Of a DNA stretch of 64,000 bases, positions 13,607 through 41,150 are shown in pieces. The stretch comes from Myxococcales bacterium (GTDB lineage Bacteria > Myxococcota > Myxococcia > Myxococcales > Myxococcaceae). The DNA lies in NCBI GenBank assembly GCA_016191815.1, contig JACPVI010000074.1:1-64000 (forward strand), read 5' to 3'. Both the position numbers and the translations under genes were made by a program. Under the pieces are notes generated by a model that ran no database searches, was not told the origin of the DNA, and worked only from the letters and a program-made list of their open reading frames with translations. Position 1 is the first letter of the stretch; each line of letters starts with the position of its first letter.

Positions 13607-16600
13607 ATGCGAAGACTCGTCCCGCTTTTCGCCGCCGCCCTGCTCGCCTGCGAGGAAAAGGACATCATCGCGCCGCCGGCGCCCAACGTGGACCCGGTCA
13701 CCAGCCCCACCACGCTCTCCAAGCAGACCATCACCGGGAGCGCGGAGTATGGCTCCACCGTCCGGATCAAGGGCGGGAAGGCCGACGTGGAGGTGAGGGC
13801 CGACTTCTTCACCGCCCGCTTCCGCGCCGAGGTGGAGCTCGCCACCAACGCCTCCAACGGCCTCGAGCTGAGGGCGGTCGACTCCGCCGGCAACGTCAGT
13901 GAGCCGACCACTGTCAGCATCGTCCACGAGCCGGTCAAGCCAACGGGAATGGAGCTGTCCCTGGATCCGGCAGAGGTGAGCGCCGATGACGGCACGGTGA
14001 TGGCCACCGCGAGGATCAGCCACCCGGAGAAGGGCGCCGACCTGTCCGGCGTGTCGATCACCTTCTCGGTGGAAGGGCTCACCGGAGGGCCGGCACCCCA
14101 GAGCGCGAAGACGGACTCGACCGGAGCGGCGCAGGTTTCCCTCCAGGGGCTCAAGGCCGCCGGCGCCGGGGCGGTGAAGGCCACGGCGGATGTGAACGGG
14201 CTCGCGCGGTCGGCGGCGCTTCGGGTGCTGCCGGGCAAGGTTTCCCAGGTGAAGCTCAAGCTGTTCAAGAACGCCGAGACCACCGAGCTGGCCGATCCGG
14301 TGACCATCTCGGTCGGCGACCGGCTGAGGACCGAGTCCGAGCCGCTGGACGCAAGCGGCAACACGGTGGGCGTGCCCATCCTCATCTCCACCAACATCCC
14401 CGGCGCGCTTCTCGAGGGGAAGGTGCTCACCAACCTCGAGCGTTCGGGCCAGTACAAGGTGGTCGCCACCGCGGCGAACACCACCGTGTTCTCCTCGCGC
14501 TCGGTCACGGTGGGCCCGGGATTGCCGGTGAAGGTGACAGTCTCGTTCACCCGCGCCAGCGCGAGGGCAGGGGAGCAGGTCGGAGTCCTCGCTTCGGCGC
14601 TTGACACGTTCGGCAACGAGGTCACCGACGCGACCATCACCCTCGCCGTCGCTCCCACGCTCGCGGCCAGCTTCACCATTCCAGGCTCCAGCCCGGCGGT
14701 GATCAAGGACCAGGGCATCCTCCCCAGCACGCGAAACTTCGTCGCGTACGATCTCTCGGGAGTCTCTGGGTCGGGTTACCAATTCACCATCACCGCGACC
14801 GTGGCCGGCGTGACGCCCGCCCTCTCCGCCGGCGCGCCGCTGGAGGTCCGTCCGGCGCCGGCCTTCGGCTTCGGCTGCCGCTCGTGGACCGGCTCGAGCT
14901 GCACCGACCAGCAGCTCGAGTTCCTCCCAGCCACCACTCCGCCCAGCACCACCAAGTCGGTGCAGGCCGGGCAGGACGTCGACTACCGGTACGCGGTGGT
15001 CGACCTGTACGGGAATCCCACCACCGGCCCGGTTTCGGTTTTCACCGACGCTCCCGGAGCGGTGGTGGTGGACGATGGGATCTCCGGCGCGGGGAAGATC
15101 AGCCGCCTCACCGTCAACGGCAGCTTCACGGTGAGCTTCTACATCGCAGGAGTGGGGAAGAAGGGCGCCTTGCAGCTCAACGTGGGCACCGGTCCGGTCG
15201 GCTCCGTGGGGCTCAGCGCCTCGGCCACTCTCATCGGGCCGAACACTGACGTGAAGGTGTTCGCCCTGGTGCGTGACGCCTTCGGGAACGTGATCGCCTG
15301 CACCACCGCCACGGCGGCAGACGTGGCGTTCACCGCCACCAGCTCGACCGGCGGCACGGTGGCGCAGAAGGGTGCGACGGTCTGCTTCAACTCGGCCTTC
15401 CAGGCCACCTACAACTTCACCGCCGAGGACACCTATGCCATCGAGTCCGAGTACCGTCCGGGCGGCACCGCGACCGGCGTGAGGGCGACCGTCTACGTGG
15501 CGGTGCTCAAGTTCGACACCACGCCGCCGGCCGTCTCCATCCCCACCGGGCAGCTCCTCCGCAACGGAACGCCGTGCGCTTTCAGCGGAACCCCTCCCGC
15601 CTGCGTGGTGCAGCCCGGCGACTTCATCGAGTTCGTGGTTTCGGCCAACGACAACTACTCGCTCTCCGAGCTGGCCTACACGGCGTTCTTCGCGACCGCG
15701 GGAGCGACCGGCACGCTGAGGACGCGCACCGTCTTCGTGCCCAGCAACTCCACCTTGCCGCTGAACCAGCCGTTCAGCTTCTCCGTCCCGGGGTCGTTCC
15801 TGGAGGACGTGGCGCTCACCGCGCTGGCGGTGGACGGCGCGGGCAATCGCGCCACCAGCGCCACGGTCATCCTCCGGGTCACCTTCAACGCCTACAAGAA
15901 CCGGACCGCTTCGCTGGTGATGCGAGACCTGGGCGGAGGAATCATCAATGCGCCGGAGGACGTGGTGGTGGCTCCCAACGGGGACCTGTACGTCGCCAAC
16001 CGCGGCAACCGCGACGTGCTGGTGCTGCCCTCGGGCTCCACCTTCCCCTCGGTCTACACCAGCCGGGCGCAGCTCGACGCGCAGTCGGTCGGCTTCGCGC
16101 CGGGGTTCATCCTCCTCGACGCGTCGGGGAACCTGTACGTGACCGACTCGGGTGGCTCCACCGAGGTGCTGCGGATCTCCCCTGGCACGCCTCCCACGGT
16201 GGTGCGGTACGTCGACTACACCACCGGAGGGCCGAACCTCCGGGGCCTGGCGCAGACTCCCTCCACTCACGCGAAAGGGCTGGTGAGCCTGTTGGCGCCG
16301 ATCGACGGCGACCGGGTCACCGTCGGCGCCAACGTCTACGAGGTCAACTCTGCGGGGACCTGCCCCAATACCGGCATCTGTCTCAACGTGGCGGCTTCCA
16401 CCCCGGCGAACGTGATGACCGCGCTCGCCGCCTGTGTCAACAGCGGCACTGGCTGCACCGTCGGCAGCCCCGGCGGCACGCCCGCGTCCCCGCACCCGAC
16501 GGTACAAGCGACGGCCTCGCCGTCGCCCACTTCGGTGGTGATCCTCGCGGTCAAGACCTCCGGCGCCGCGGGGAACTCCACCGCGCTCACCTCGAGCAGC

Positions 16601-17380: not shown

Positions 17381-18508
17381 TCAGGCGCCGACCAGCACCG
17401 CGATAACGATCAGCAGCGCCAAGATTGCAAATAGGCCCATCGCCACGATCGGGATGAGCGATTTGCCGTCCCGTCCACCCAGGCCGGGGATCTTCGAGGC
17501 CAACCCGCCGGACGCGGCTTCGGCGTTCTCCTCGGCGGCCTCGCCGTCGCCCTCCTCCGCGGCTTCGGCACCCTCGTCGTCGGCGCTCGCGGTCTGCTGT
17601 CCGCCTGGAGCATCCTCGGGCGGCTTTTCTTCGGCTGGCGGCTCCGCTGGCGGCTCCGCCGGCGGAGGGGGCTCCTCCTTCGGCGGCTCCTCCTTCGCGG
17701 CCTGGGCCGCGGCCTTCATCTGCGCCTTCTCCTCCTCGGAGGGGGAGGGCTCCTGGGCGGTGGCCTCGCCCTCCTCGTCGGGGAGGACCACCGGCGTCTC
17801 CCGGACCTCGGTCGGGTCCAGGTAGAGCAGCCGGATGCCGCCGATCTCAAGCTCGTCGCGGTCCTTGAGGGTCTTCTTCTTGATGCGCTTCTTGTTCACC
17901 TTGATCCCGTTGCGGGACTCGAGGTCCTCGACGTGGGTGCCGGACCAGTCCCGGCGGATCTTCGCGTGGCGCCTGGAGACCAGGTCGTCCTTGAGCACGA
18001 TGTCCACCGTGTCGTCGCGGCCGACCACGATCTCTTGGGCGTCGAGGATCTCGATCCGCTGGCCCTCCTTGGGGCCGTTCATCACCCGGAAGTAGGGGTT
18101 CTCGCGGCCGGGCGAGAGCCCGCGCATCACGTCCTTCACCACCTGGCGGGCCACCATCGCGGTGCTGTCGGTCGGGTTGCCCTTCGGAGAGGCCGCCACC
18201 CGGTCGAAGGTCACGTCGAACTGGGCGATGGCGATGATGTCGCCGTTGCGAAGGAGCCGCTTCTCGCCCTTGGGCAGGGTCTGGCCGTTGATCTGCGTGC
18301 CGTAGGCGCTGCCCATGTCCTCCACGAAGAAGAGCGAGCCGTCGCGGGAGATGCGGGCGTGCGAGCGGGAGACCGCCTGCTGGGCCAGGACCACGTGGCA
18401 GTTCTTGTCCCGGCCGATGGTGATGACCTCTTCGTCGAGGATGACCTCGGTCGCCTTCTCAGCGCCGCCTTCTTCGCTGCGCTGCTTGACGAGGAGACGG
18501 ACGGACAT
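17381..18508 (-). CDS. Double-FHA protein with C-terminal membrane anchor
   Basis: 375 residues, starting at MSVRLLVKQRSEEGG. Two FHA domains are evident. The first (~25-95) has ITIGRDKNCHVVL, SRSHARI and GSAYGTQING. The second (~145-225) has IVVGRDDTVDIVL, SRRHAKI and SRNGIKVN. Both keep the Gly-Arg, Ser-x-x-His and Asn/Gly residues that bind phosphothreonine, although the first has GTQ where Asn is usual. A long Glu/Pro/Ala-rich linker (~235-340) leads to a single hydrophobic helix at the very end (IPIVAMGLFAILALLIVIAVLV), so the FHA domains face the cytoplasm from a tail anchor. The partner is probably a Ser/Thr kinase substrate; this genome neighbourhood has such a kinase at 31261. Same strand as the TPR lipoprotein upstream. 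Confidence 0.85.
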   Translation of the reverse strand: MSVRLLVKQRSEEGGAEKATEVILDEEVITIGRDKNCHVVLAQQAVSRSHARISRDGSLFFVEDMGSAYGTQINGQTLPKGEKRLLRNGDIIAIAQFDVTFDRVAASPKGNPTDSTAMVARQVVKDVMRGLSPGRENPYFRVMNGPKEGQRIEILDAQEIVVGRDDTVDIVLKDDLVSRRHAKIRRDWSGTHVEDLESRNGIKVNKKRIKKKTLKDRDELEIGGIRLLYLDPTEVRETPVVLPDEEGEATAQEPSPSEEEKAQMKAAAQAAKEEPPKEEPPPPAEPPAEPPAEEKPPEDAPGGQQTASADDEGAEAAEEGDGEAAEENAEAASGGLASKIPGLGGRDGKSLIPIVAMGLFAILALLIVIAVLVGA

Positions 18509-18511
18509 GAG

Positions 18512-18571
18512 GGTCGAGAGTCGAGTGTCGAGTGTCGAGCGATGGTCGAGCGATGGTCGAGCGCCTTGGAC
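18512..18571. repeat. GTCGAG short tandem repeats
   Basis: Between the TPR lipoprotein (stop at 18597) and the FHA gene start there are about seven GTCGAG units with 1- to 5-base spacers: first in 7-base steps (GTCGAGA, GTCGAGT), then in 11-base steps (GTCGAGCGATG). A related array, in the complementary sense (CTCGAC), occurs at 23496-23548. Confidence 0.7.
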
Positions 18572-18596
18572 GTCGGTTGGGGTCTGGACACCGCGT

Positions 18597-19640
18597 TCAG
18601 TACTGGTTGGAGCCGACGTACCGCTCGCAGCTCTCAACTTCCTTGGGGTACTCCTCCGCAGTGGCGAACTTGAGGAAGTTCTTGCAGGCGATCGTCGCCT
18701 CCTTGCCGCGCCGCTCCTCCTGGTACAGCTCATATAGCCCGTAGTGACAGGGCGCGTATCGCCCGTCGAGCTTCACGCACTTGCGAAAGGCCCGCTCCTC
18801 CTCGTTCCGCAAGCCCTTCTCCCGGTACGTCTTCGCGAGCGTGTACATCGAGGCGGCGCTGTTTTGCCCTTCCAAAGTCTCCTGCGCCTCCTTGAGGGTG
18901 GGCTGGAGCAGGGCGTCCTTCCGCGCCACCAGCGCCGCGTTGTTCCGGCACTGCGAGTGCTTCGGGTCGGCCTCGAGACAGGAGGTGTAGGCGTCGCGCG
19001 CCTCGCCGTAGTGGCCCGCCTCCGAGTAGGCGTTGCCGAGGTTCATCCACGCCTCGGCGTAGGTCGGGTCGAGCTGCACCGCCTTCTGAAGCTCCTCGAT
19101 CGCCTCTTCGTGCGCGCCGTCCTCCAGCGCCATCACCCCAAGCCAGTGGTGAGGGTCGGCCAGGTTCGCGTTCACCGCCACGATGGTCCGCAGCTCCTTG
19201 CGGGCCTTGTCTTTCTCGCCCATGTCCTTGTAGGCCAGCGCGAGGTTGTACCGCGCCTCGGTGTAGTCGGGGTTCACCTTGAGCGCCCGCTGGAAGGCGT
19301 CGTGCGCCTTCCCGTACTCGCGATTGGTGTAATAGATGTAGCCGAGGTTGTTGTACGCCTGCGCGTGCTCCTGGTTGTAGCGCAGCGCCTTGATGAAGTG
19401 CTCCTTCGCCTTGTCCTCCTGGCCACGCCGCAGCGCGATCAGACCCTTGTTCACCCAGAGGTCCGCATAGTGCGGAGAGAACTGGATGCCGAGATCGCAC
19501 TGCACCTCGGCCCGGGTGAGGTCCCCCGCGCCGATGAATTGCGCGCAAAGCTCGTTGCACTCCAGTGCGCGCGGGTGCGGAGGCGGCGCCGTCACGCACC
19601 CTACGGCCGCCAGCAGCACCCCGAAGCCTCGACTCCGCAT
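18597..19640 (-). CDS. TPR-repeat lipoprotein (PilF/Tgl-like architecture)
   Basis: 347 residues. The lipoprotein signal ends at LLAAVGC (Cys15). About six to seven TPR units follow (e.g. AQAYNNLGYIYYTNREYGKAHDAFQRAL, TEARYNLALAYKDMGEKDKAR), then a Cys-containing C-terminal part (CRNNAAL, FRKCVKL, APCHYGL, ESCERYVG). TPR lipoproteins of this type include PilF/Tgl, which help the PilQ secretin of type IV pili assemble. The size here is larger than typical Tgl (~250), so the equivalence is not certain. It is upstream of the FHA protein on the same strand with the GTCGAG repeats between. Confidence 0.75.
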   Translation of the reverse strand: MRSRGFGVLLAAVGCVTAPPPHPRALECNELCAQFIGAGDLTRAEVQCDLGIQFSPHYADLWVNKGLIALRRGQEDKAKEHFIKALRYNQEHAQAYNNLGYIYYTNREYGKAHDAFQRALKVNPDYTEARYNLALAYKDMGEKDKARKELRTIVAVNANLADPHHWLGVMALEDGAHEEAIEELQKAVQLDPTYAEAWMNLGNAYSEAGHYGEARDAYTSCLEADPKHSQCRNNAALVARKDALLQPTLKEAQETLEGQNSAASMYTLAKTYREKGLRNEEERAFRKCVKLDGRYAPCHYGLYELYQEERRGKEATIACKNFLKFATAEEYPKEVESCERYVGSNQY

Positions 19641-23549: not shown

Positions 23550-24857
23550 CTACAGCACCCCTCTTGCCTTGATCTCGAGGTACCGATTCACTGCCGCCAG
23601 CGACAGCTCCTCGGGGTAGACGTCGATCATCTGCACGCCTTCCTGGCCGATCTTCGACTTCATCTGCTCACGCTCGAAGAGCAGCTCGCTGGCCACCGCG
23701 TGCTGGAAGGCCTCCTCCGGGCCGGGGGGCGGCGTCCTCAAGAGCGCGGTCAGCGCGGTGTCCTTGAGCGAGAGGCAGAGTGGAACGTGGCGGCGGGCCA
23801 GCCGCCTGAGCGGGTACACCATGGTGCTCGCCTGATCGTCGTCGAGGAAGTCGGTGAAGACGCACAAGAGGCTCCGGCGGGCCAGCCGCACCGACAGCTC
23901 CTTGAAGAGCGCCAGGTAGTCCACGTAGGTGAGGTGCGGCCTCGCGGAGTACAGCGTGTCGACGATCTTCCGGTACTGGGTCCGCCCCGAGCCCGGCGCC
24001 AGGTAGGCCTTCACGTCGTCGGCGAACACCACCAGTCCGACGCGATCGCCGTTGCGCACCGCCACGAAGGCCAAAAAGAGCGCGGCGTTCACCGCGTGGT
24101 CGAGCTTGGAGAGCCCCTCCACCCGCGCCGCCATCGAGCGCCCGGCGTCCACGCAGATGAGGATGGTCTGCGACCGCTCCGACTCCATCACCCGCGTCAC
24201 CGGCTTGCTCCTTCGCGCGGTGGCCTTCCAGTCGACCTCGCGCACCGAGTCGCCTTGGGTGTAGTCGCGGAGCCGCGCGAACTCGGTGCCTCTCCCATCG
24301 CGCCTAAGGTGCCTGAGCCCCAGGTTGACCAGGTCCAGCGCGGCGCCCGAGAGCAACAACCTGCTCGCCCCTCTCAAGTCCGGGAACACCGAGACCTGCG
24401 TGCGCGCTTTGAAGATCCGCTCGTGCCACATCAGGCCCAGAGGGCCCCGCACCCTCACGTTCAAATCGCCCAGCTCGAACTTCCCCCGCTTCACCGGCGT
24501 CGCCCGATAGGTCGCCTTCGCCCGGCTGTGCCCCGACAAGAGCAGCGCCAGCTCCTCCGGCTCGGCGGAGAACTCCTCCGGCACGTCGTCCTTGATCCGG
24601 ATGTAGGAGGGCCTCGAGGCTGGATTCACCAGGTGCAGCTCGACCCTGTTGGGCGCGCCGACCGAGAGCCTCGGCGGCAGCTCGCGCCAGAGCTTGAGCT
24701 TCACCTCTCGGGCGAGCGCGTAGTCGACCAGTGCGAGCCCGAGCAGCGCCAAGTCAGAGAGCAAAAGGAGCGACCAGAGTCCCCCCAAAAAGCCCGCGGC
24801 CATCGCGGGCACCGACAGAAAGCACAGGCTGGCCCAGAGCCGGCCGGTGGGAATCAC
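23550..24857 (-). CDS. DUF58 protein with von Willebrand A-like domain
   Basis: 435 residues. Two N-terminal hydrophobic helices ([43 protein letters not shown]) anchor the protein. The DUF58 signature [20 protein letters not shown] precedes [13 protein letters not shown]-like core follows with [14 protein letters not shown], where the canonical DxSxS is DAGRS (one Ser replaced by Gly), so metal binding may be weak. The gene overlaps the MoxR gene by four bases. MoxR-DUF58 pairs are thought to work as an ATPase-driven chaperone for membrane-bound or periplasmic targets. Confidence 0.9.
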
Positions 24858-25882
24858 CGCGGGACCTCGACCGCGCTGACCACCTCGCGCAGTACGTCCC
24901 CCGGCGTGGCGCCGTCCAGCTCGGCGTCCGGAGAGAGCAAGAGCCGGTGCTTGAGCACCGGGCCAGCGAGGTAGCGGACGTCGTCGGGTGTGACGAACGA
25001 GCGCCCGCGCAGCGCCGCCAGCGCCTTCGCCGCCAAGAGCAGGTGCACGCTGGCCCGAGGGCCCGCTCCGAGCCGGATCCTCGGAGAGATGCGGGTCGCG
25101 CCCACCAGCCGGCGGATGTAGGAGAGCACCGGCGGTTCGACGGTCACCTCGTGCAGGGCCCCGCGCGCCGCCATCACCTGCTCCTTGGTGGTGGCGGCCG
25201 TCACCCCGGCCCTCCCGATGTCGCCCGCGTCGAAGCCGCGGTGGACCGAGGCGAGGATCGCGTCCTCCTCCTGCTCCGAGGGGTAGGCGACCTCGATCTT
25301 GAACAGGAAGCGATCGAGCTGCGCCTCGGGCAGCGGGTAAGTGCCCTCGGACTCCACCGGATTCTGGGTGGCGAACACGGTGAAGAGCGGCGAGAGGGTG
25401 ATGAGCCGCCCCTCCAGCGACACCGACCGCTCCTGCATCGCCTCGAGCAAGGCGGACTGGGTCTTGGCCGGGGCGCGGTTGATCTCATCGGTCAGGAGCA
25501 GGTCGGTGAAGATCGGCCCCCGGACGAGCACGAAGGACTGCGACTTCAGATCGAAGATGCTCGTCCCCAGGATGTCCGCGGGCATCAGGTCGGGCGTGAA
25601 CTGGATGCGCTTGAACTCGGCGCTGATCGCCCTGGCGAGCGCCCGCGCCATGAGCGTCTTCGCCACGCCGGGAACGCCCTCCAAAAGGACGTGCCCGCCC
25701 GCGAGGAGGCCGCAGAGCATCAGCTCCAGCGCCTCGTCCTGCCCGACCACCGCCTTCCGCACCTCGTTCATCGCGCTATCGCGCACCGCGTTGGCGATCC
25801 GCACCGCGTTGCCTTGCGGCTGAGGCGGCATCGGCTGGACCGGGACAGGCGGCGGGACGGCGGGCATCGCGGGGCCGTTCAT
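24854..25882 (-). CDS. MoxR-family AAA+ ATPase
   Basis: 342 residues. After a short Pro-rich N-terminus come Walker [15 protein letters not shown], Walker [12 protein letters not shown], sensor [24 protein letters not shown], and the C-terminal lid ([28 protein letters not shown]). All residues needed for ATP hydrolysis are present. The ATG overlaps the stop of the DUF4350 gene (ATGA at 25879-25882). It probably cooperates with the DUF58 and DUF4129/DUF4350 proteins made from the same operon. Confidence 0.95.
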
Positions 25883-27228
25883 GAGGTCCTCCTGTTGGAG
25901 CGCTCCACGGATGGGCGAGATTGCGACGGGCGGGCCGCGGGCGCCAGCGCCTTCTTCTCTGCGCGCCTGCGCCCAGGTTTGATCAGGAGCCGCGCGCTGG
26001 CGGCCTTGCGGGCCAGCTCGCGCAGCTGGGCCTCGGAAGTGGTGGCGTGCGAGAGGTGGATCACCTCGGTGAGCGCCCGGGCGAGGTCCGCTCGCCCGCG
26101 GGCGGAGAGAGCGGCCGCGACCTCCGCGGGCTCCGTTCGCGGGGGGATCCCGGCCCCTGGCGCGAGATCTTGCGAGGCGCCTCGGGCCAAGAGGCTGGCC
26201 GCGTAGGAGTAGTGGCGCCCCTCGCGGTAGATGCGGCTCGCGGCGAAGAGCGCGTCGGTGCCCCCGAGGCGGATGTCTTGGGGCGGGGTGCGCGGCCGGC
26301 CGAACCGCCGCAGGGAGGCGGCCCACAGCGAAAGGCCCAAGAGGAGCTGCGCCGCCGCGAAGTGCAGCCCGTACCGCGCGGCGAACTCCGCCACCGAGCG
26401 GTCGCTGGTGAAGCCGTGGTGGAACTCGTCGAAGGCCAAAGGGCCGGTGGCGCTGGCGGCGCGCATCAGCGAGAGCCATAGCTGGGCATTGTCCGCCCGC
26501 GGGAGAGCCTCGTTCATCGCCAGCTCCGGTGCGCCGATCACCACCACCCGGCCCTGGCCGTAGGGCACCAGAGCGGCCACCACTCCTCCCAGGGTGTCGT
26601 CGAGCAGGAGCGGCACCCCGTCGTCGGGGAGCGCGAGGAAGCTCTGCACGGCTGTCTCTGTGCGCTCCACCCCGAGGGTGTACGGGCTCGGCTGAGCGGG
26701 CACCAAGGTCCTCATCCCCACCGCGCGATCTGCGGCGGAGAGCTTTACCTCGAGGGCGCCGAGCAGCGGGCAGGGGCGGCTGCCCCAGGGCAGGTAGACC
26801 AAGGTGGCGCCCTTCTTCACGTGCTCGAGGAGCTTCTCCCGCTCCTCCTTGGACGCGAGCGAGGCGCGGAAGCGGTTCCAGCCCCGGTGGTGGTCCGCCA
26901 GCTCCTCCTCGTCCACCCCGGCATCGGAGGAGAGGACCAGCGGCAGCTCCAGCTCGATGTCTTCCTCCACGCGATCGGAGAAACCGACCGCCAGCAGAAC
27001 CAGATTCGTCCCCTCGGCGATCAGGTCCAGATTCCGCTGGAGCCTTTGCACCGGGACACCGCTCTCGTCGCCCAAAAGGTAGAGCGCCCGGGCCCCGTCC
27101 TTCTCCGAGCGGTAGGTGGAGAGCGTGTCGGCGAAGGAGCCGCGAGCTGCTCCTCGGAAGAGATACGAGCCCAAAACCCCGAGCAGCACGAGCCCGCCGA
27201 TCACCAGCAGCGGGAAGCGGTCACGCAT
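25879..27228 (-). CDS. DUF4350 membrane protein
   Basis: 449 residues. N-terminal helix [20 protein letters not shown], then the DUF4350 region: [34 protein letters not shown] is the family's typical start, with [14 protein letters not shown] and later [13 protein letters not shown] second helix ([17 protein letters not shown]) precedes a cytoplasmic tail rich in Ala/Arg. DUF4350 proteins resemble the GATase-like/ABC-associated fold and consistently co-occur with MoxR, DUF58 and DUF4129. The start overlaps the end of the DUF4129 gene by eight bases. Confidence 0.88.
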
Positions 27229-31260: not shown

Positions 31261-34200
31261 ATGAGCCACCTCGACCGCGAGCGCGCGGCCGCGTTCGCGC
31301 AGGGCAAGCTCGAGCCGGTTGAGGCCGAGCGCGTGGAGCGGCACGCTCGCGAGTGTGCGGCCTGCGATGCGCTGATCGCTGATCTCGACGGCGGCTCGCG
31401 CACGGCTCCGACGGTGATCGAGCGGCCCGCCTCCCCTGAGGCGGGCGTCGGGCTGGGAAACGCGCATTCCCCTCGCCCACCCGTGGCTGCGGGCCGGGGT
31501 GAGGTCGGCCCAGGGCCGGAGGGGAGGCCCGGGGTTGGAGGGCGGCTGCCCCGCGGGGCTTCGGTCGGCCGATACGTCATCCTGGGGGAGCTGGGCGAAG
31601 GGGGCATGGGCACCGTGTACGCGGCGTACGACCCCGAGCTGGACCGGCGGGTCGCGCTCAAGCTCTTGACTCCCGAGCTGGCCGGGAAGGCGCGGTCGTC
31701 GCTCAGGCTGCTCCGGGAGGCGCAGGCGATGGCGCGCCTGGCTCACCCGAACGTGATCGCCGTCCACGACGTGGGGGAGCTCGGGCAACAGGTCTTCGTG
31801 GCGATGGAGCTGGTCGAGGGGCCGACCCTTCGCGCCTGGGTGAAGGAGCGCCCGAGGCGGCCCGCGGAGATCGTCTCCGCCTTCGCCTCGGTTGGGCTGG
31901 GCCTGGCCGCGGCTCACGACGCCGGCCTGGTCCACCGCGACTTCAAGCCGGACAACGTGCTCATCGGGAGGGACGGCCGGGCGAGGGTGACCGACTTTGG
32001 GCTCGCCCGGGCGGACGCTTCGTCCTCCTCGACCGAAGAAGACGAGGAGGCGCTTGGCCATTCGGGGGGGAGCGCTCTGTCGGTCGATCTCACCGCGGTG
32101 GGCACGGTGCTGGGCACTCCGGGGTACATGTCGCCGGAGCAGCACCTCGGGCGGCCCACCACCGCCCGGACGGACCAGTTCAGCTTCTCGGTCGCCCTCT
32201 ACGAGGCGCTCTACCAGAGCCGGCCTTTTTTTCCCGGCGCCTGGCCCGAGTTCGCCCGCCAGGTTCGCCGCGCGGAGGCGGAGGAGCGCGCGCGGAGGAC
32301 CCGGCCGCTGGAGCTGCCGGCCGGTGGCTCCCCATCGCCGGCCCCTCCCGTGGTCCGGGAGCCGCCGCGGACGCCGCGGGTGCCGGCTCGCATCCGCCGC
32401 GCGCTGACGCGAGGCCTGGCGTTCGATCCCGAGCGGCGCCACGAGTCGATGAGGGCCTTCCTGCGGGAGCTCAGGTGGGACCCGCAGGCCCCGAGGCGTC
32501 GGGCGATCGGCGTCGGCCTCCTCGCGACGGTCGGAACGATTGTCGCGATGTGGAAGACCGGGGCCGACCGCCAGGCCCTGTGTGCGGGCTCCGAGCTCAA
32601 GCTTTCGGGCGCCTGGGACGCGGCGATCAAGGAGCGCTCCCGCGCTGCCTTCCAGGCCACTGGCCGCCCGCACGCCATCGCCGCCTTCGCGGGAGTGGAG
32701 CGAGCGCTCGACGCCTACGCCGCCAAGTGGGCCGAAGCGCACTCCGACGCCTGCCGGGCCACCCGAGTGCGAGGCGAGCAATCCGACGAGATGCTCACCT
32801 TGAGAATGGCCTGCCTGGACCGGCGGCTGGAGGAGCTGCGGGCGCTCTGTGCGCTCTTCGCCAGCGCCGACGAAGCCGTGGCGAACAAGGCGGTGATGGC
32901 GGCGGAGTCCCTCTCGTCCCCGGCGGATTGCTCAGCGCAAGCGGTCCTCTCGAGCAAGGTGGCGGCGCCCGCTCCGGCTGCCCGCGCCCAGGTCGAGCAC
33001 CTCCAAGAGCGGCTCGCACAGGTCAGAGCGATGCATCAGGCGGGCAGGTATTCCCAAGGGGCGGAGGCCGCGCGCGCGCTGCTCGCGGAGGCGCGGGCGC
33101 TCGGCTACCGGCCCCTGGAGGCGGAGGCGCTCGAGCAGGCGGCGCTGCTCGAGCAGGCGGTGGGCAGCGTGGAGACCTGCGAGAAGAACCGGTACGAATC
33201 GGTCTTCGCCGCGCTGGCCAGCGGAGACGAAAGGCTCGCCGCCCGTGTCTCCACCGCGCTGGTCTACACCCTGGCGGTGCAGCGGGCCCGGTACGACGAG
33301 GCGCGGAGGTGGCTCTCCCAGGCGCAGGCGCTCTTGGATCACCAGGGCGAGCGGGGCGAGCTTCGCGCCTACTGGCTCTCGAACGCGGGCATCCTCGCCG
33401 GCGCGGAGGGAGATCGCGCCCGCGCGGTGGAGCATGCCCAGCAGGCGCTGGAACTTCGGGAGGAGGTCCTGGGCCCCGAAAGCCTCAAGGTGGCGGAGAC
33501 GCTGCTCAACCTGAGCAGCTTCCTCCATTCGCTCCAGCGGCTGGACGAGGCGGCCAAGGCCGCCGAGCGAGCGTTGGCGATCTACGAGAAGGCGCTCGGC
33601 ACCGGCCACCCGGACGTGGGCAGTGCGCTCATCAACCTGGGCGTCATCCGCCAGGGTCAGGGGCGCTTGGCCGAGGCCGAGGCGCGCCTGGGAAGGGCGC
33701 TGGACATCCGCGAAGCGACGGTGGGGCGCGATCACCCGTCGACGCTCCGGCTGCTGGCGACCATCGGGATGCTGCACGCCGACAGCGGCGACCACGAGCG
33801 GGCGGTGGGGATGCTCGGGCGCGCGCTGGAGGGCTACGAGCGCACGGTGGGCCCGGAGAGCATCGAGGCGGCCACCACCCGGTACGACCTCGGGAGCCTT
33901 CTGGCGACTGAAGGGAAGTTCGCCCAGGCGCTGCCCTATTACCAGCGCGCCCTGGAGATCCGCGAGAAGGCGTTGGGCCCCGAGCATCCGGAGGTGGCCG
34001 CAGCCTTGGAGGCCAAGGCCGAGGCGTTGCTCGAGCTTGGCAGGGCGAGCGACGCGGTCGCGCTGTACGAGAGGGCGCTCGGCATCCGCGAGCGCGCGCT
34101 AGAGCCGGACAACCCCGAGCTGGGCTACTCGCTCTTGGGGCTCGGGCAGGCCCAGCTCGCGGTCGGGCGGGCCAGGGCGGCGGTGCCCAGGCTGGAGCGG

Positions 34201-34407
34201 GCGCTGAAGCTTTGGGAAACCGGCCGGCCTCCAGGGGAGCTGGCCTCGGCGCGCCTCGCCCTGGCCCAGGCGCTCTGGGACTCGGGAGGCGACCGCGCTC
34301 GGGCGAGAGGGCTGGCGGTGGCCGCCCGCGACGGGTACGCCTCGGCCGGAGGCGCCTACCGGGAGAAGCTCTCGCGCGCGACTGTCTGGCTCGCCTCGCG
34401 CCGCTGA
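31261..34407 (+). CDS. Membrane Ser/Thr protein kinase with N-terminal zinc-finger-like motif and C-terminal TPR array
   Basis: 1048 residues. The N-terminus has an anti-sigma-like zinc motif (ERVERHARECAACDALI: His-x3-Cys-x2-Cys), unusual at the front of a kinase. The kinase follows: glycine loop LGEGGMGTVYAAYD (near residue 115), ALK, HRDFKPDN (~224), TDFGLA (~245). An acidic, Ser-rich insertion lies in the activation segment before GTPGYMSPEQ. One membrane helix (AIGVGLLATVGTIVAMW, ~412-430) separates it from a domain containing several TPR-like units (repeated ALEIREKALGPEHPEVA-type helices). All catalytic residues are present, so it is probably active. Domain order implies an intracellular kinase and an extracytoplasmic TPR sensor. 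Confidence 0.92.
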   Translation: MSHLDRERAAAFAQGKLEPVEAERVERHARECAACDALIADLDGGSRTAPTVIERPASPEAGVGLGNAHSPRPPVAAGRGEVGPGPEGRPGVGGRLPRGASVGRYVILGELGEGGMGTVYAAYDPELDRRVALKLLTPELAGKARSSLRLLREAQAMARLAHPNVIAVHDVGELGQQVFVAMELVEGPTLRAWVKERPRRPAEIVSAFASVGLGLAAAHDAGLVHRDFKPDNVLIGRDGRARVTDFGLARADASSSSTEEDEEALGHSGGSALSVDLTAVGTVLGTPGYMSPEQHLGRPTTARTDQFSFSVALYEALYQSRPFFPGAWPEFARQVRRAEAEERARRTRPLELPAGGSPSPAPPVVREPPRTPRVPARIRRALTRGLAFDPERRHESMRAFLRELRWDPQAPRRRAIGVGLLATVGTIVAMWKTGADRQALCAGSELKLSGAWDAAIKERSRAAFQATGRPHAIAAFAGVERALDAYAAKWAEAHSDACRATRVRGEQSDEMLTLRMACLDRRLEELRALCALFASADEAVANKAVMAAESLSSPADCSAQAVLSSKVAAPAPAARAQVEHLQERLAQVRAMHQAGRYSQGAEAARALLAEARALGYRPLEAEALEQAALLEQAVGSVETCEKNRYESVFAALASGDERLAARVSTALVYTLAVQRARYDEARRWLSQAQALLDHQGERGELRAYWLSNAGILAGAEGDRARAVEHAQQALELREEVLGPESLKVAETLLNLSSFLHSLQRLDEAAKAAERALAIYEKALGTGHPDVGSALINLGVIRQGQGRLAEAEARLGRALDIREATVGRDHPSTLRLLATIGMLHADSGDHERAVGMLGRALEGYERTVGPESIEAATTRYDLGSLLATEGKFAQALPYYQRALEIREKALGPEHPEVAAALEAKAEALLELGRASDAVALYERALGIRERALEPDNPELGYSLLGLGQAQLAVGRARAAVPRLERALKLWETGRPPGELASARLALAQALWDSGGDRARARGLAVAARDGYASAGGAYREKLSRATVWLASRR

Positions 34408-34413: not shown

Positions 34414-35937
34414 CTAGAGCTCCTCGAGGAACTCGTCGTTGTAGGTGTAGCGCGACAGCCGCTTCACCAAGGCCTCCATCGCCTCCACCGGTTTCACCGC
34501 GAACAGCATCTGGCGGAGCTTCTTCACCTTCTCGTACTCCTTGGCGGTGAAGAGCTTCTCCTCCTTCCGGGTGCTGGACTGGGGGATGTTGATCGCCGGC
34601 CACACCCGCTTCTCCGCCAGGAGCCGGTCGAGGGTGATCTCGCTGTTCCCGGTGCCCTTGAACTCCTCGAAGATGACCTCGTCCATCCGGCTCCCGGTGT
34701 CGATGAGCGCGGTGCCGACGATGGTCAAGGTGCCGGCCTCCTCGGTGGCCCTCGCGGCGCCGAAGGCTCGCTTGGGCCGCTCCATCGCCCTGGAGTCGAT
34801 GCCGCCGGTCATGGTCCGTCCCGAGGAGTCGATCTCCTTGTTGTAGGCGCGGGCCAGCCGAGTGATGGAGTCGAGGAGGATCATCACGTCCTTGCCGGAC
34901 TCCACCATCCGCCGTGCCCGCTCCAGCGCCAGCTCGGCGACCTTCAAGTGCTCCGCCGGCCCGCGGTCCGCGTTCGAGGCCAAAACCTCGGCGTCGATGC
35001 TCCGCCGCATGTCGGTGACCTCTTCGGGCCGCTCGTCGATGAGCAGCACCATCACGTAGATCTCCGGGTGGTTGGCGATGGTGGCCTGGGCGATGCGCTG
35101 GAGCATGATCGTCTTCCCCGTCTTCGGAGGAGCGACGATCAGCGCGCGCTGCCCCTTGCCGAAGGGGGCGATCAGGTCGAGCACCCGGGTGACCATCTCC
35201 TTGGGGCTGTGTTCGAGGTGGATGCGGTCCACCGGATCGATGGAGGTGAGATCGCCGAAGTGGGGGAGCTTGGGCGCCGCGTCGAGGGGCACGCCGTCGG
35301 CGGCGTCGACCTTCTGGACCACGCCCTTGTTTCCACGGAAGTTGGCCTGGGCGGTGATGAACTGGCCTTGCCGCAGCCTGAGCTTCTGCACCAGGTTCTT
35401 GGGAAGCTCGGGGTCGTCCTGGGTGGGGATGAGGTTGCGCTTCACCTGCCTGAGGAAAGCGTTCGGCCCCTTCACGTCGGTGTCCAGCACTCCCTCGATC
35501 GGCGCGAGCTGGGCGGGGGCTGCCGCCGGCTGGCCCTGCGCGGCCGCCCGGTTCTGCGGCGGTGCCTGCTGCATCCGGGCCTGGTACTGCTGCAACTCCT
35601 GGGGGGTGAGAAACACCTGCTGCATCTGACCGTCGGGGCCCTGCACCATCCGGTAGGCCTGGCCGTCCGGGGTGAAGTGCACCTGGGCGCGCCGGCGCCG
35701 CCTGCGCCGCCTTCGGCGTCCGGACCCGGGGACGCTCGCCTGCACCGGCGCTGCTTGACCGTCGGGGGCGGGGGCGCCTGCTGCTTCCTGGGCCTCCTGG
35801 GCTCCGTCGTCTCCTTCGTCCGGGCCTTCGTCGCCTTCGCCTTCTTCTGGAGGCCGGGGCTGCGGCGGCTCTCGCTGCTCGGCGATGCCGGCCGCGGGAG
35901 GAGCAGCAGACGGGTGGGTGGGATCGTTGTCGCTCAT
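34414..35937 (-). CDS. rho: Transcription termination factor Rho (atypical RNA-binding region)
   Basis: 507 residues. The C-terminal two-thirds is unmistakably Rho: Walker A APPKTGKTIMLQ, LLIDERPEEVTDMRRSI, Q-loop TGGIDSRAMERPKRAFGAAR, TALIDTGSRMDEVIFEEF and KGTGNSEITLDR. The N-terminus differs: the usual Rho_N helical bundle is not recognisable and is replaced by ~110 residues rich in Glu, Pro and Gln. That stretch includes ten consecutive Arg (residues 74-83). The cold-shock-like segment reads GPNAFLRQ where E. coli has DGFGFLR, so one of the two RNA-stacking Phe appears to be Asn. The chosen ATG (35935-35937) follows no strong SD and the frame is open further upstream. Rho terminates untranslated transcripts. 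Confidence 0.93.
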   Translation of the reverse strand: MSDNDPTHPSAAPPAAGIAEQREPPQPRPPEEGEGDEGPDEGDDGAQEAQEAAGAPAPDGQAAPVQASVPGSGRRRRRRRRRRAQVHFTPDGQAYRMVQGPDGQMQQVFLTPQELQQYQARMQQAPPQNRAAAQGQPAAAPAQLAPIEGVLDTDVKGPNAFLRQVKRNLIPTQDDPELPKNLVQKLRLRQGQFITAQANFRGNKGVVQKVDAADGVPLDAAPKLPHFGDLTSIDPVDRIHLEHSPKEMVTRVLDLIAPFGKGQRALIVAPPKTGKTIMLQRIAQATIANHPEIYVMVLLIDERPEEVTDMRRSIDAEVLASNADRGPAEHLKVAELALERARRMVESGKDVMILLDSITRLARAYNKEIDSSGRTMTGGIDSRAMERPKRAFGAARATEEAGTLTIVGTALIDTGSRMDEVIFEEFKGTGNSEITLDRLLAEKRVWPAINIPQSSTRKEEKLFTAKEYEKVKKLRQMLFAVKPVEAMEALVKRLSRYTYNDEFLEEL

Positions 35938-36107
35938 GAGGCTATGGCCGCTTGCCGGCCCCTCGCTCGCTGGGCGGTTCTTCACGCCAGGCTGTCGGAC
36001 AGGGAGGCCCGCGCGGGGTGAGGTGGGCCAAGAAGGCGCCTGCCTACCGATGCCGCCGGCTCCCTGAGCGCTCTCCGGGGGCCCCATGCCACCCGGCGAG
36101 CAGGGCA

Positions 36108-36135
36108 ATCCTACCAGGGTTGCACTCCCTCACAA
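36108..36135 (-). promoter_or_regulatory. Putative sigma-70 promoter of rho
   Basis: Read on the minus strand: TTGTGA (36130-36135), a 16-base spacer, TAGGAT (36108-36113). Each hexamer matches four of six consensus positions. It lies about 170 bases upstream of the rho start, giving a long leader that would allow the autoregulation known for rho genes elsewhere. SppA lies upstream (stop at 36154). Confidence 0.45.
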
Positions 36136-36153: not shown

Positions 36154-38619
36154 TCATCTCACCGTCAACTGGTACTCCATCATCGCCAGCGGCCTCGGCA
36201 CCCCAAGGAGCATCCGCTCGAGCCCCAGCTCCCGCGCAATGCGTTTCAGCGGCTCCGGCGGCTCGCTTCTGGCGGAAAGCTGCGACAAGAGGCCGTCGCC
36301 GTCGGCGCCCCCGAAGAGGCCCCTATTTTCCGAGATCACCTCCAGCTCCAGCTCCTCGCCCTCGGGGACGCCGGCTCGCTTCCTCGCGGCGGCGAGGGCG
36401 TCGTGGAGCCCGCCGATCTGGTCGATCAGCCCGCGCGCCTTGGCGTCCTCCCCTGCCCACACCCGGCCCCGTGCGAGGGCGTCCACCTGCTCCTTGCCCA
36501 GCTTTCTGGAGCGCGCCACCTCGGTGATGAAGTCGTCGTAGAAGGCATCGATCCACGCCTGCGCGGAGGCGCGCTCCGCCTCCGTCCACGGCTTGAAAGC
36601 TCCGAGCATTCCGGCCCGCTCGCCCCGCCTGAGCTGCTCCTGGTAGATGCCCAGCCGCTCGGCGAGCTTCTCCACCGCGGGCTTGAGCATGAAGACCCCG
36701 ATGCTCCCGGTGATGGTGGTCGGCTCGGCGAACACCAGGTCGGCGCCCATCGCCGAGTAGTAGCCGCCCGAGGCCGCCACATCGCCCATCGAGGCCACCA
36801 CCGGCTTCTTCTTCTTCGCGTCCAGCACCGCGCGGTAGATGAGATCCGAGGCCAGCCCGTCGCCGCCCCCCGAGTCCACCCGGACCACGATCGCCGCCAC
36901 GTCCGGATCCTCGGCGGCGCGGCGGAGCGCCTTCACCACCGTCTCGGCGCCGGCGATCTGGGATAGCCCGAGCGGATCTTCCCGGCTCTTCCCGCCCGCG
37001 ATGTTGCCGATCACCGGGACGATGGCGAGCTGCCGGCGCCTCCCCCAGCGGTCCTCCCGCATCTGCCTTGGACGGTAGCGGGCTTCGAAGCGGGCGAGCG
37101 GCACCAGCTCCTTCAGCTTGTCTTCGAGGCTCGCCGGGTCGATCACCTCGTCGACGAGGCCGAGCTGCACCGCGCGCCTGGGCGTCTTCAGCCCCTCGTC
37201 GATGGCGGCGCGGACCTGCTCGAGGGTGAGGGAGCGCGCCTTGGCGATCGCCGCCAGGTAGGCGCGGTAGTTGACGTCCAGGGTGGCCTCGGTGGCCTCG
37301 CGTTGCTCGGGGCTCATCTCCTTTCGAGTCAGGGCGTCAGGGGCGTTCTTGTACGCGCCCACCCGCGCCACGTCCCACTGGACGCCCAACTTCTCCATCG
37401 AGCCCCCGAGGAACGTCGCGGTCGCGGCCAGCCCGTCGATGAGCAGCGTGGACTCGGGCACCGCGTAGATCCGATCCGCCTCGCAGGCGATCAGGTACTC
37501 GGCGTCGGCGGCGGTGAGGAGGACCGCCGCCACCTTCTTGCCCCTGGCCTTGAGATGGGCCATTGCCGCGCGCAGCTCCTCCGCCTTCCCCAGCCCTCCC
37601 TCGAGGGCTTGCACTTTGAGCACCACCGCCTTGAGATCCGGGTCGTTCGCTGCGTCATCGAGCAGCCGCAAGAGCCTCAAGTGAGGGTCCTCGCGCTCGC
37701 CCCCGAAGATGGCCGCGGCGGGACTCGGCGCGTCGGCCAACAGCTCCTCGAGATCCAGGAGCGCCACCTTGGCCGGAGCCAGGTTCACCGCGCGGTATTT
37801 CTGGGCCGAGAGGCGGACCCCGACCAGGTGGTTGGCTCCCGCGGGCGCTCCGGAGCCCGCGTAGGTCAGCCCGAGGTGCGAGCTGTCCACGGTGAGCGCT
37901 GCCTGGAAGAACAGCTCGTCGGTGGCGCGCAGCCCGTGCGAGACGCCGGCGGAGAGCCACAGGCCCCGGAGCACCTCCGCCCTGGCGGTGTAGGTGAGCC
38001 GCCCCGCGCCGATCGCGGTCTCCCCGAAGAGGTAGTCGGCGCCCAAGGTGTAACGCTCGCCGATTGGCCGCAGCCCCACCGCCACGTCGAACTGGCGGCC
38101 CAGGCTCAGCTCCCCCGAGCGCGGGGCGCCGACGTTCCTGGCGACCAGTCCAAATGAGAAGTAGCGGCTCGGCCGCCCGGCCAGGCCGAGGTCGACCGAG
38201 TCGAGGCCATCGAGATCGGCGTCCTCGCCCGAGGAGAAGAGGTTGTAGCTGCCTCCGACCGAGAGCGTGCTGGAGCCGACCGAGAAGGCGTAGCTCGTCT
38301 TGCGGTAGTCGGGCCCGGCGCCGCGCACCCACTCCAGCGAGAAGCCGGCCCCGATGGCGCCAAAGAGCGAATCGCCGAGGAAGAGCCCGTCCACCACCTG
38401 GCCGCGCGCGCCGCCCCGCTCGTGGAGGTAGAAAAGCTCGGGGCCTCCCAGGAAGGAAAGCGCCCCTGGGTTGAGGGCGGAGGCGGTGGCGTCCGCGGCA
38501 AGGGCCGCCGAGCTGGGCGGCAAGGTCGCCCCGCGGGAGGGGTCGGAGTGAAGGACGGCGCCGGTCTGGCCGAGGGCGAAGGCCGGCGCCAGCACGAGCG
38601 GCAGGAGAGCAGGCGGCAT
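36154..38619 (-). CDS. SppA-type signal peptide peptidase fused to an N-terminal beta-barrel-like domain
   Basis: 821 residues. Residues ~1-270 look like an outer-membrane beta-barrel: signal peptide (LLPLVLAPAFALG), then amphipathic strands such as LYFNLFSSG-type segments, RYTLGADYLFGE and LTYTARAEVLRGLWLSAGVSHG. Residues ~290-821 are an SppA 67K-type peptidase with two ClpP-like halves. The catalytic Lys is in VARVGAYKNAPDAL (Lys424) and the Ser in DVAASGGYYSAMGAD (Ser617), 193 residues apart, close to the 200 of E. coli SppA. A GDGLASDLIYRAV segment precedes it. Such a barrel fused to SppA is unexpected, because E. coli SppA is an inner-membrane enzyme. The final residues contain YQLTVR. 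Confidence 0.85.
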   Translation of the reverse strand: MPPALLPLVLAPAFALGQTGAVLHSDPSRGATLPPSSAALAADATASALNPGALSFLGGPELFYLHERGGARGQVVDGLFLGDSLFGAIGAGFSLEWVRGAGPDYRKTSYAFSVGSSTLSVGGSYNLFSSGEDADLDGLDSVDLGLAGRPSRYFSFGLVARNVGAPRSGELSLGRQFDVAVGLRPIGERYTLGADYLFGETAIGAGRLTYTARAEVLRGLWLSAGVSHGLRATDELFFQAALTVDSSHLGLTYAGSGAPAGANHLVGVRLSAQKYRAVNLAPAKVALLDLEELLADAPSPAAAIFGGEREDPHLRLLRLLDDAANDPDLKAVVLKVQALEGGLGKAEELRAAMAHLKARGKKVAAVLLTAADAEYLIACEADRIYAVPESTLLIDGLAATATFLGGSMEKLGVQWDVARVGAYKNAPDALTRKEMSPEQREATEATLDVNYRAYLAAIAKARSLTLEQVRAAIDEGLKTPRRAVQLGLVDEVIDPASLEDKLKELVPLARFEARYRPRQMREDRWGRRRQLAIVPVIGNIAGGKSREDPLGLSQIAGAETVVKALRRAAEDPDVAAIVVRVDSGGGDGLASDLIYRAVLDAKKKKPVVASMGDVAASGGYYSAMGADLVFAEPTTITGSIGVFMLKPAVEKLAERLGIYQEQLRRGERAGMLGAFKPWTEAERASAQAWIDAFYDDFITEVARSRKLGKEQVDALARGRVWAGEDAKARGLIDQIGGLHDALAAARKRAGVPEGEELELEVISENRGLFGGADGDGLLSQLSARSEPPEPLKRIARELGLERMLLGVPRPLAMMEYQLTVR

Positions 38620-38701: not shown

Positions 38702-39913
38702 CTACCATTCCTCGGTGCCGGAGACCGAGTCGAGCGGGTCCTTGCCGCGGCGCTTCTTCTCGGAGCCGGTGCGGCCCCCGCCGCGGTCCTCGGCGTTCCA
38801 GTCCTCCGTCCCGTGCCGGCCCTCCAGGGGGTCCGAGGTCTTCACCAGCTTCTCCCCGCCGCCGTCGGCCGCGTTCACCAGTTGGTTGACCAGCCGACCC
38901 ACCTCGGACTTGAGCTGCCCGTACTCGTCGCCCTGGAAGATGATCTTCTTGCCCGAGAGCTTCTTCCCCGCCTTGAGGTCGAAGATGCCCACCAATAGCT
39001 CCAGGCCGCCGCTCTCGTTGATCTCCTTCACCGTGCCCACGACGCCGCGGTCCAGGTTCAAGGTCTTGGCGATGGAGGCCATCGTCGCGCCGCCCTTCTC
39101 CCGCGTCACCTCCTGCGCGAGCTTGTCGAGCAAGGAGTCGTAGGCCTTGAAGGGCGGAGTGGGGCTCAAGTCGGTGGCGATCTCCTGCTCCTCGGGAGTC
39201 ACCTCCACCACCGCCCCGTGCTGCTTGCAGCCGGGCCGCTCGAGCCGGAGGACGTGCTTGCCGATGGGGAGCGTCTGCAGGGAGACCGGCGTGTAGCCCT
39301 GGAACTCCCCGTCGAGGTAGACGCGGGCGCCGGCGGGGCGCGACTTCACGTTGAGGTTGCCGCGGAGCTGCGCGCTCCGGCTGGTGGCCACCTGGGCGCG
39401 GAAGGAGATGAAGTCCTGGGTGAACTTCTTCCGGTCCAGCTCGTAGGTCGGCGAGAGCGCGAGCAGGTCCAACAGCGCGATCTTCGCCTCCTCCACCTCG
39501 CCCCGGGAGTGCAGCACCGCGGCGTACATCGCCACCGCGTCGCAGAGGTTGCCGCACTCCTTCATCGCCCCGGCCGCCTTGGCGTACTCCTTGATGGTGG
39601 CCCGGAGCTTGCGCTCGGCGTCCTCCTCCTCGCGCGCCTCGAACGCCAGGCGGCTCTCCTCGAATCCCGTCCTCGCGCGCTTGAGCGACGCCTCGGCCTG
39701 CTCGTCCGAGGGGAGCCCGAAGAGGTCGTCCGTCTTGCGGAGCACGTAGCTGCGGTGCTGCTCGAGCGACTCGTTCATGTACGCCTCGAGCTTCACCGTG
39801 CTCGCCTCGGCTCCCATGTCCATCGGCACCAGGAGCACCGCGATTCGCTTGGTGGTCGGAGGCGGCGCGCTCAGGGCGAGCGCGGGCAAGAGAGCGAGCG
39901 CGACCGGGTTCAT
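38702..39913 (-). CDS. PEGA-domain protein with C-terminal DPL...W motif repeats
   Basis: 403 residues. A signal peptide (MNPVALALLPALALS) starts the protein. The first ~190 residues are helical, with TPR-like segments in which two Cys sit close together (MKECGNLCDAVAM). The PEGA motif is RGNLNVKSRPAGARVYLDGE followed by GYTPVSLQTLPIGKHVLRLER. Near the end two related motifs occur: DPLEGRHGTEDW and DPLDSVSGTEEW, the latter being the C-terminus itself. The repeats are Arg/Gly-rich between. PEGA domains are found in secreted or surface proteins, often near kinases; the terminal motif may be a sorting or interaction signal. Same strand as the neighbouring PEGA protein, 34 bases apart. Confidence 0.8.
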   Translation of the reverse strand: MNPVALALLPALALSAPPPTTKRIAVLLVPMDMGAEASTVKLEAYMNESLEQHRSYVLRKTDDLFGLPSDEQAEASLKRARTGFEESRLAFEAREEEDAERKLRATIKEYAKAAGAMKECGNLCDAVAMYAAVLHSRGEVEEAKIALLDLLALSPTYELDRKKFTQDFISFRAQVATSRSAQLRGNLNVKSRPAGARVYLDGEFQGYTPVSLQTLPIGKHVLRLERPGCKQHGAVVEVTPEEQEIATDLSPTPPFKAYDSLLDKLAQEVTREKGGATMASIAKTLNLDRGVVGTVKEINESGGLELLVGIFDLKAGKKLSGKKIIFQGDEYGQLKSEVGRLVNQLVNAADGGGEKLVKTSDPLEGRHGTEDWNAEDRGGGRTGSEKKRRGKDPLDSVSGTEEW

Positions 39914-39947
39914 GGTTACCTCGAGTCCTGCTGACGATAGCAAGCCC

Positions 39948-41150
39948 TCAAGGTAGGCCCAACACGAGGTCCGGCTTGGGACCGGCAGGCCTGGCCAAAA
40001 GAGCCACGCCGGTGACCGCCGCGGCCGCCCCTCCCACCCCCGCCCAGAACCACCACTTCCCAAGCAGCGGGGGAAGCTCCAGCTTCGCCGCCGCCGTCGG
40101 AGGAGGCTGGTCGAGCCAGCGCTTCACCTGCGCCGCCGCGTCCGCCGAGCCGGTGTCCGGATCGAAGCGCACGCCGGAGAGCCGGTTTCCGGAGAGCAGG
40201 TCCCAGGCCCAAAGAGACGCCGGCCTCTCTGCGCCGGTGCCCAGCGTGGCCAGCACCAGGGTGCGAGCGCCGAGGGCGGCCCCGAGCGCCCTGGCCTCGG
40301 GGAGGAGCTGCTCCCCCTGCGGCGCCGAGGCGAGCTTCTCTGCTGCGGCCACCGCCTCCGCGTAGCCAGGGAGCGGCTCGAGCAGCGGGTGCACTTCGGT
40401 GGGCTTGGCAGCCACGATGTCGGGGAAGGCGCCGAAGGGTACATAGCCCGGCCGGGTGAGGATGATGTGGTGGCGGCCGATGGGGAGCTCCTGCTCGGCG
40501 GTCGGGGAGAACCCGAGCGGTTCTCCATCGAGCGTGACGGCCGCCCCGCTCGGGACCGAGTCGATGGAGAGCTTCCCCTTCGGCAAGTTGCTCACGTTCA
40601 GTCGCGCTGCGGTGAAGGCGTCGGCCACGTCAGGGCCGAACAGCTCGGAGGTCGGCTGGGCCTCGCTGTTCAACAAGAGCGCGCGGATGAAGGCCACCTT
40701 GGCGCCGGCCTTGTCGCCCTGCATCAGGAGGGTCGCCCCCAGGAAGGTCAGCACCTCGGAGAGGCGCGCGGGCTTCGCCTCTACCGGCCGCTTGATCAGG
40801 AAGACCGCCGAGGCGGTGAAGCTGTCGGCCGCCGCCTCGAGGTCGAGGTTGTCGAGGAGCTGCCGGCCCTCTTCGAAGAGCTTGTCGCCTTCCTCCAGAG
40901 AAGCTGGGGCCGGGGGAGGGAAGAGCACCTCGATGTCCAAAAGCTTTGCTCCCTTCGCCCTCAGCGCCTGCGACAGCTCGGCCTCGAGCCGTCCCACCGA
41001 CTGCTTGGCGACGGTGTCCAGCCCGACCGCAAAGACGGCCACTCCCGCCGGAGCCGGCTGCCTGGCCGAGGACTGCGAGGTGGGCGCGCTCGGCTCGGCC
41101 GCAGTGCAGATTGTGGCGAGCAAGCTCGCCAACAGAAGGCAGTGGCGCAC
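39948..41150 (-). CDS. PEGA-domain protein with C-terminal membrane helix
   Basis: 400 residues. The signal peptide MRHCLLLASLLATICTAAE is followed by a globular N-terminal half with helical repeats (SLEEGDKLFEEGRQLLDNLDLEAAADSF), then the PEGA motif GKLSIDSVPSGAAVTLDGEP and LGFSPTAEQELPIGRHHIIL. A hydrophobic helix (KWWFWAGVGGAAAAVTGVALLA) lies near the C-terminus. It is the first gene of a PEGA pair on the minus strand. Function unknown; PEGA proteins often act in cell-surface or signalling contexts. Confidence 0.82.
   Translation of the reverse strand: MRHCLLLASLLATICTAAEPSAPTSQSSARQPAPAGVAVFAVGLDTVAKQSVGRLEAELSQALRAKGAKLLDIEVLFPPPAPASLEEGDKLFEEGRQLLDNLDLEAAADSFTASAVFLIKRPVEAKPARLSEVLTFLGATLLMQGDKAGAKVAFIRALLLNSEAQPTSELFGPDVADAFTAARLNVSNLPKGKLSIDSVPSGAAVTLDGEPLGFSPTAEQELPIGRHHIILTRPGYVPFGAFPDIVAAKPTEVHPLLEPLPGYAEAVAAAEKLASAPQGEQLLPEARALGAALGARTLVLATLGTGAERPASLWAWDLLSGNRLSGVRFDPDTGSADAAAQVKRWLDQPPPTAAAKLELPPLLGKWWFWAGVGGAAAAVTGVALLARPAGPKPDLVLGLP

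Follow-up and report, generated by a model that had tools for sequence, protein, structure and literature searches.

A predicted FadL/PorV-type outer-membrane barrel fused to a complete SppA peptidase in Myxococcota

SppA is commonly treated as an inner-membrane enzyme. A gene in the genome of a Myxococcales bacterium (GenBank assembly GCA_016191815.1) raises the question of whether this peptidase can also be held at the outer membrane. The window analysed here is a stretch of 64,000 nucleotides (contig JACPVI010000074.1, positions 1 to 64,000, forward strand), and a preliminary description of it had read one of its genes as an apparent outer-membrane beta-barrel joined to a complete SppA. We asked what the N-terminal region is, where it would place the protease, and how widely the arrangement is distributed. 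The parts of the gene are as follows.

36154..38619, minus strand: barrel-SppA fusion gene; ATG start, 821 aa, without internal stop (protein families and full-length relatives)
38551..38619, minus strand: signal peptide and flexible N-terminal tail, residues ~1-23, MPPALLPLVLAPAFALGQT (hydrophobic run, then AxA/G-Q, kept in relatives)
38449..38550, minus strand: predicted N-terminal plug ('hatch') inside the barrel, residues ~24-57, with an N50-P51-[A/G] motif (conservation, models, FadL alignments)
37807..38439, minus strand: predicted 14-stranded FadL/PorV-type outer-membrane beta-barrel, residues 61-271 (AlphaFold2, Foldseek, VIA-align, amphipathic strands)
37771..37806, minus strand: barrel-SppA linker, residues 272-283 (length conserved in relatives)
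37072..37770, minus strand: first S49 domain and middle region of SppA, residues ~284-516, with catalytic Lys424 (codon 37348-37350; invariant)
36307..37044, minus strand: second S49 domain of SppA, residues ~526-771, with catalytic Ser617 (codon 36769-36771; invariant)

Layout of the gene and its protease half

The fusion ORF is composed of a Sec-type signal peptide, a predicted 14-stranded barrel (residues ~24-275) and a complete two-domain SppA (residues ~283-764). Full-length relatives with 40-56% identity were found throughout the family and the order. A chance ORF or a mis-joining of frames was rejected, as nearly all of 60 relatives had the full-length protein.

The protease half was assigned with sequence families and by structural comparison. 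Pfam S49 matched the fusion protein twice, and TIGR00705 (SppA_67K) matched residues ~318-769 with 317 bits against a cut-off of 311. When the protein was aligned with E. coli SppA (3bez) by phmmer, Lys424 and Ser617 matched the catalytic Lys and Ser of that enzyme, and the dyad is split over the two S49 domains, the first supplying Lys and the second Ser. Both residues were invariant in 48 of 48 relatives and then in 79 of 79 in a larger set. The SppA part superimposed on 3bez with a Z of 35.9 over 451 residues, the alignment starting at residue 282. The two S49 domains and the alignment of both residues with the E. coli catalytic pair confirm the complete SppA of the preliminary description, which had named the same Lys and Ser.

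The match to TIGR00705 began only at model position 83. The 82 positions left unmatched correspond to the region of the E. coli membrane helix, which supports the presence of the barrel in place of the anchor. The N-terminal inner-membrane helix is typical of E. coli SppA and lies outside the definition of the catalytic family; it is absent here, and a signal peptide and the barrel are found instead. The fusion shares its tandem S49 domains, its split of Lys and Ser and its core fold with E. coli SppA (protease IV, 67K type; TIGR00705, 3bez/3bf0), whereas the E. coli enzyme is held by one N-terminal inner-membrane helix at the place where the fusion has its predicted 14 strands. The catalytic features place the protease half within the 67K SppA family, although it lacks the usual helix anchor.

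Predicted fold and family of the N-terminal region

The N-terminal region was modelled with AlphaFold2. The model of the whole fusion protein, built from an alignment of 28 sequences, had a pLDDT of 84.2 and a pTM of 0.80, with its lowest confidence in residues ~1-23. Residues 61-271 were modelled as 14 antiparallel strands (pLDDT ~90), and the same 14 strands were obtained when the barrel region was modelled alone (pLDDT 87.4, pTM 0.83). In both models, the plug contains helices at residues 46-49 and 51-56. When the isolated barrel was compared with known structures by VIA-align, FadL (3pgr/2r89) matched with a Z of 26.9 over ~240-248 residues (rmsd 2.6-2.7), and the F chains of 8gl6 and 6h3i (both type 9 translocon), which we take to be PorV, matched with Z values of 26.3 and 26.0, respectively. 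Chains of Bacteroidota BAM structures, presumably BamG, gave Z values of 20.7-22.8, of which F. johnsoniae 9n2d_B, likewise assumed to be BamG, had 22.8. Alignments with FadL-superfamily structures (Z 23-27) started at model residue 20-32. Those with OmpG and other generic porins began only at residue 58, leaving out the plug, and had a Z of at most 18.9. The plug motif N50-P51-[A/G] is well kept among the relatives (N50 in 73/79, P51 in 75/79), and the FadL mutant entries N33A, P34A and delta-NPA were among the structural matches, so that the NP motif has been singled out in FadL too. Collectively, these models and matches support the prediction that the N-terminal region is a FadL/PorV-type outer-membrane barrel with a plug. 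The barrel reading of the preliminary description is therefore upheld (pLDDT 84-87, FadL/PorV Z ~26), and neither a non-barrel beta domain nor a known soluble SppA domain was found in the predicted structure.

The sequence itself carries further signs of a barrel. Strong alternating hydrophobicity was seen in 10 of the 14 strands (family average); of windows drawn at random from the SppA half, 14% showed it. Across 79 proteins, the turns that would be periplasmic are of near-constant length, and the putative extracellular loops vary. Among 48 close relatives, all had a hydrophobic signal-peptide-like run, 42 had an AxA-type site and two had a lipobox-like string. No transmembrane helix was detected in the mature protein, the maximum for 19-residue windows after residue 25 being 1.42, which is below the typical level.

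No Pfam or NCBIfam model matched residues 1-300 above its cut-off, and a sequence profile search of the barrel against the PDB gave no match. Membership in the barrel superfamily thus rests on structure prediction together with a bridging homologue. A profile built from 43 barrel domains detected a standalone PorV-family protein (L190, a 329-residue frame), which scored 102 bits against NF033709 (PorV_fam; cut-off 90), and hhalign aligned the barrel profile with it at a probability of 97 and an E of 1.1e-10 over 250 columns. The missing library match could be read in favour of a soluble beta domain that forms no membrane barrel. We find this hardly credible in view of the two AlphaFold2 models, the Z of 26 to FadL and PorV, the 14-strand pattern with its amphipathic strands, the constant turns with variable loops, and the hhalign link to the PorV family.

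The relationship of the predicted barrel to the known families is one of fold. No match of the fusion protein to PF03349 above the cut-off was reported, while with this model other proteins of the genome, canonical FadLs, scored up to 199 bits; the fusion barrel would thus be a fold-level relative and not a member of PF03349. With the FadL/TodX/CymD channels it has 14 strands, the N-terminal plug and the NP(A) motif in common (Z ~27), but it is smaller, aligning with ~250 of the 360-420 residues of FadL; its predicted extracellular loops are very short, the sequence identity is ~12%, and its last strand leads into a protease of 550 residues. With the PorV/PorQ family (NF033709), it shares the fold (Z ~26), a D-D-A-T-x-x-x-x-NPAGL start and RP periplasmic turns, although the fusion protein had no match to NF033709 at the cut-off of 90 (a related protein, L187, scored 15 bits) and is joined to a protease. 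PorV is a component of the type 9 secretion system. A search of the same genome with Pfam SprA_N (PF14349) gave zero matches, and the controls were likewise without a match.

Four other proteins (L192, L193, L195 and L196; 503-781 aa) were seen to carry PorV-like barrels followed in one frame by long, TPR-like-looking C-terminal regions. They suggest that barrels of the PorV-like family have been put to use in anchoring various kinds of cargo.

Placement of the protease and readings of its role

If the N terminus is periplasmic, a barrel with 14 strands would bring its last strand back to the periplasm, and SppA would lie on the periplasmic side. The step from the barrel fold to an outer-membrane location is one that we take with high confidence. 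The outer-membrane placement proposed in the preliminary description agrees with the barrel model, the FadL/PorV matches, the signal peptide and the absence of a transmembrane helix from the mature protein. In the outer-membrane proteome tables of M. xanthus (PMC3222651), compared by name only, no entry is named SppA or S49 and several are 'hypothetical'.

E. coli SppA is a tetramer with an N-terminal transmembrane anchor and a Ser-Lys active site in the periplasm, where it degrades released signal peptides (PMC9360617). The preliminary description had called SppA an inner-membrane or cytosolic-side peptidase; the inner-membrane anchoring holds, and the cytosolic side does not, the E. coli catalytic domain being periplasmic (PMC9360617). 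The orientation of the fusion would be periplasmic as well. Because E. coli SppA is already in the periplasm, the fusion would change the membrane of attachment and not the compartment.

From the computed gene, domain order, catalytic residues, conservation and predicted barrel fold, we infer the location, oligomer, activity and substrates as follows. The fusion protein would be exported by Sec and its signal peptide then removed. Residues ~24-275 would form a compact barrel of the FadL/PorV type, with 14 strands and the N-terminal plug, and the SppA core would sit directly below the outer membrane on a linker of ~12 residues. The usual SppA oligomer is expected, in which Lys424 of the first domain would activate Ser617 of the second. 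On the inner side of the outer membrane, the oligomer would be expected to cleave hydrophobic or extended peptides as well as segments that are unfolded.

The linker measured 11-13 residues in 79 of 79 relatives, with the SppA core beginning at about residue 283, and this constancy bears on two other readings. One is that export is followed by cleavage, which would release SppA as a soluble periplasmic protein from a barrel that then stands alone. The title of SppA entry 4kwb mentions self-processing, so proteolysis of S49 proteins is known, but the linker length is fixed across the phylum and the single-frame fusion is kept wherever checked; we regard such cleavage as very improbable. The other is that the barrel is a working FadL-like conduit, in which hydrophobic peptides, lipopeptides or fragments would enter or leave the SppA chamber by way of the lumen or a side opening. 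The fold is that of a FadL transporter, the plug and NP motif are kept, the short fixed linker would hold the barrel close to the mouth of the protease, and FadL-family barrels pass hydrophobic molecules through a lateral opening (PMC12611786). However, the very short extracellular loops and the smaller size of the barrel also suit a plain anchor, and other FadL relatives, such as BamG, have lost transport and act as scaffolds (PMC12611786). A conduit seems to us rather unlikely, and the compact barrel and short loops mildly favour a role as an anchor only. The fuller form of that idea, a machine in which the FadL-type barrel exchanges hydrophobic peptides with the SppA chamber beneath it and so degrades, imports or releases peptide signals across the outer membrane, we consider unlikely. 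If true, it would give Myxococcota and Gemmatimonadota a built-in outer-membrane route for peptides.

The genes next to the fusion bear on a further reading, and those that flank it are listed here.

38702..40063, minus strand: PEGA-domain protein 1, upstream (PF08308, 52 bits; 82 bp before the fusion gene)
39948..41150, minus strand: PEGA-domain protein 2, upstream (PF08308, 41 bits)
34414..36108, minus strand: rho, transcription terminator, downstream (sequence and PF00006)

Myxococcaceae and Archangiaceae loci share the arrangement PEGA2-PEGA1-fusion-rho, of which Anaeromyxobacter and several further families in the same taxonomic order retain fusion-rho. Elsewhere in the window, a large ORF at 31261-34407, on the strand opposite to rho, appears by eye to hold a Ser/Thr protein kinase domain and TPR-like repeats in its C-terminal half. 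An FHA-domain protein (FHA/YscD-like domains) and a MoxR-type AAA ATPase lie at 17381-18733 and 24854-26479, respectively, with no link to the fusion.

A PorV/BamG-like barrel could also dock on BAM or another machine, so that SppA would clear stalled or misfolded precursors or tails as a quality-control protease. BamG is a FadL-family barrel that acts as a scaffold and binds the surface lipoprotein BamH (PMC12611786). The match to 9n2d_B and the near-universal presence of the fusion in the phylum speak for such docking, but the neighbours are rho and PEGA proteins and not BAM genes. BamG resembles the fusion barrel in family and in structure, with the Z values given above for the chains so assigned; it differs in being a separate protein that binds BamH and has no protease. 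A role in quality control is, in our judgement, quite improbable.

The other SppA copies point back to the anchored peptidase. Besides the fusion, the genome has a 606-residue frame for a conventional 67K-type SppA and one of 356 residues for a short SppA, and most carriers of the fusion likewise keep a conventional SppA; the two copies, fused and ordinary, therefore probably share the work between the membranes. In one genome of the Gemmatimonadota group (L213), the fused SppA (12793-15012 of the contig) and an ordinary SppA (17471-19021) lie on the same strand ~2.5 kb apart. With the helix anchor replaced by a barrel, a periplasm-facing outer-membrane SppA beside an ordinary copy is the most economical reading. 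We consider it likely that the gene encodes an outer-membrane-anchored, periplasm-facing SppA that has a barrel in place of the inner-membrane helix.

Distribution, history and meaning

The barrel domain was found in 155 of 174 Myxococcota genomes, the named relatives including Myxococcus, Corallococcus, Archangium, Pyxidicoccus and Anaeromyxobacter, and it was in the SppA frame in all 31 distant matches fetched. The named relatives point to a Myxococcaceae-like member of the Myxococcota as the source of the window. In a second phylum, read as Gemmatimonadota, at least 35 of 80 genomes had near full-length matches that include the barrel; this figure is a count from the results table, and more genomes had long frames with partial alignment. 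The loci fetched as fused from this set had both domains in one frame. Single cases occurred elsewhere (L157, L187), including under a Spirochaetota title. The fusion that the preliminary description had proposed to look for in other genomes is thus near-universal in Myxococcota and common in Gemmatimonadota. A one-off fusion or an assembly chimera is ruled out by the 155 genomes, the same-frame matches and the second phylum. The fusion is an old and stable architecture.

Its history was approached from the protease side. A census based on part of the SppA core, without regard to the barrel, gave 80 loci, of which 22 were fused and the rest unfused; none of the Bacteroidota loci was fused, and their proteins start with a hydrophobic segment. 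A tree of the SppA part required five label changes at best and at least two by starred branches, and the Gemmatimonadota and Myxococcota fusions lay in different parts of it. With at least two label changes, a single origin of the fusion is unsupported; judging from these sequences, there was probably more than one gain or loss of it.

Full-text searches of the open-access literature found no description of a barrel-SppA fusion. The plain name 'SppA', taken from the protease half, would hide the barrel and its likely location in databases. The fusion would be one more reuse of the FadL/PorV barrel, here to anchor an enzyme, alongside the scaffold roles that it has taken on in BamG and in the type 9 secretion system. 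A near-universal outer-membrane SppA in the phylum would put an ATP-independent Ser/Lys protease on the inner side of the outer membrane, and it raises the question of which substrates it meets there, whether precursors of outer-membrane proteins, pieces of lipoproteins or peptide signals.
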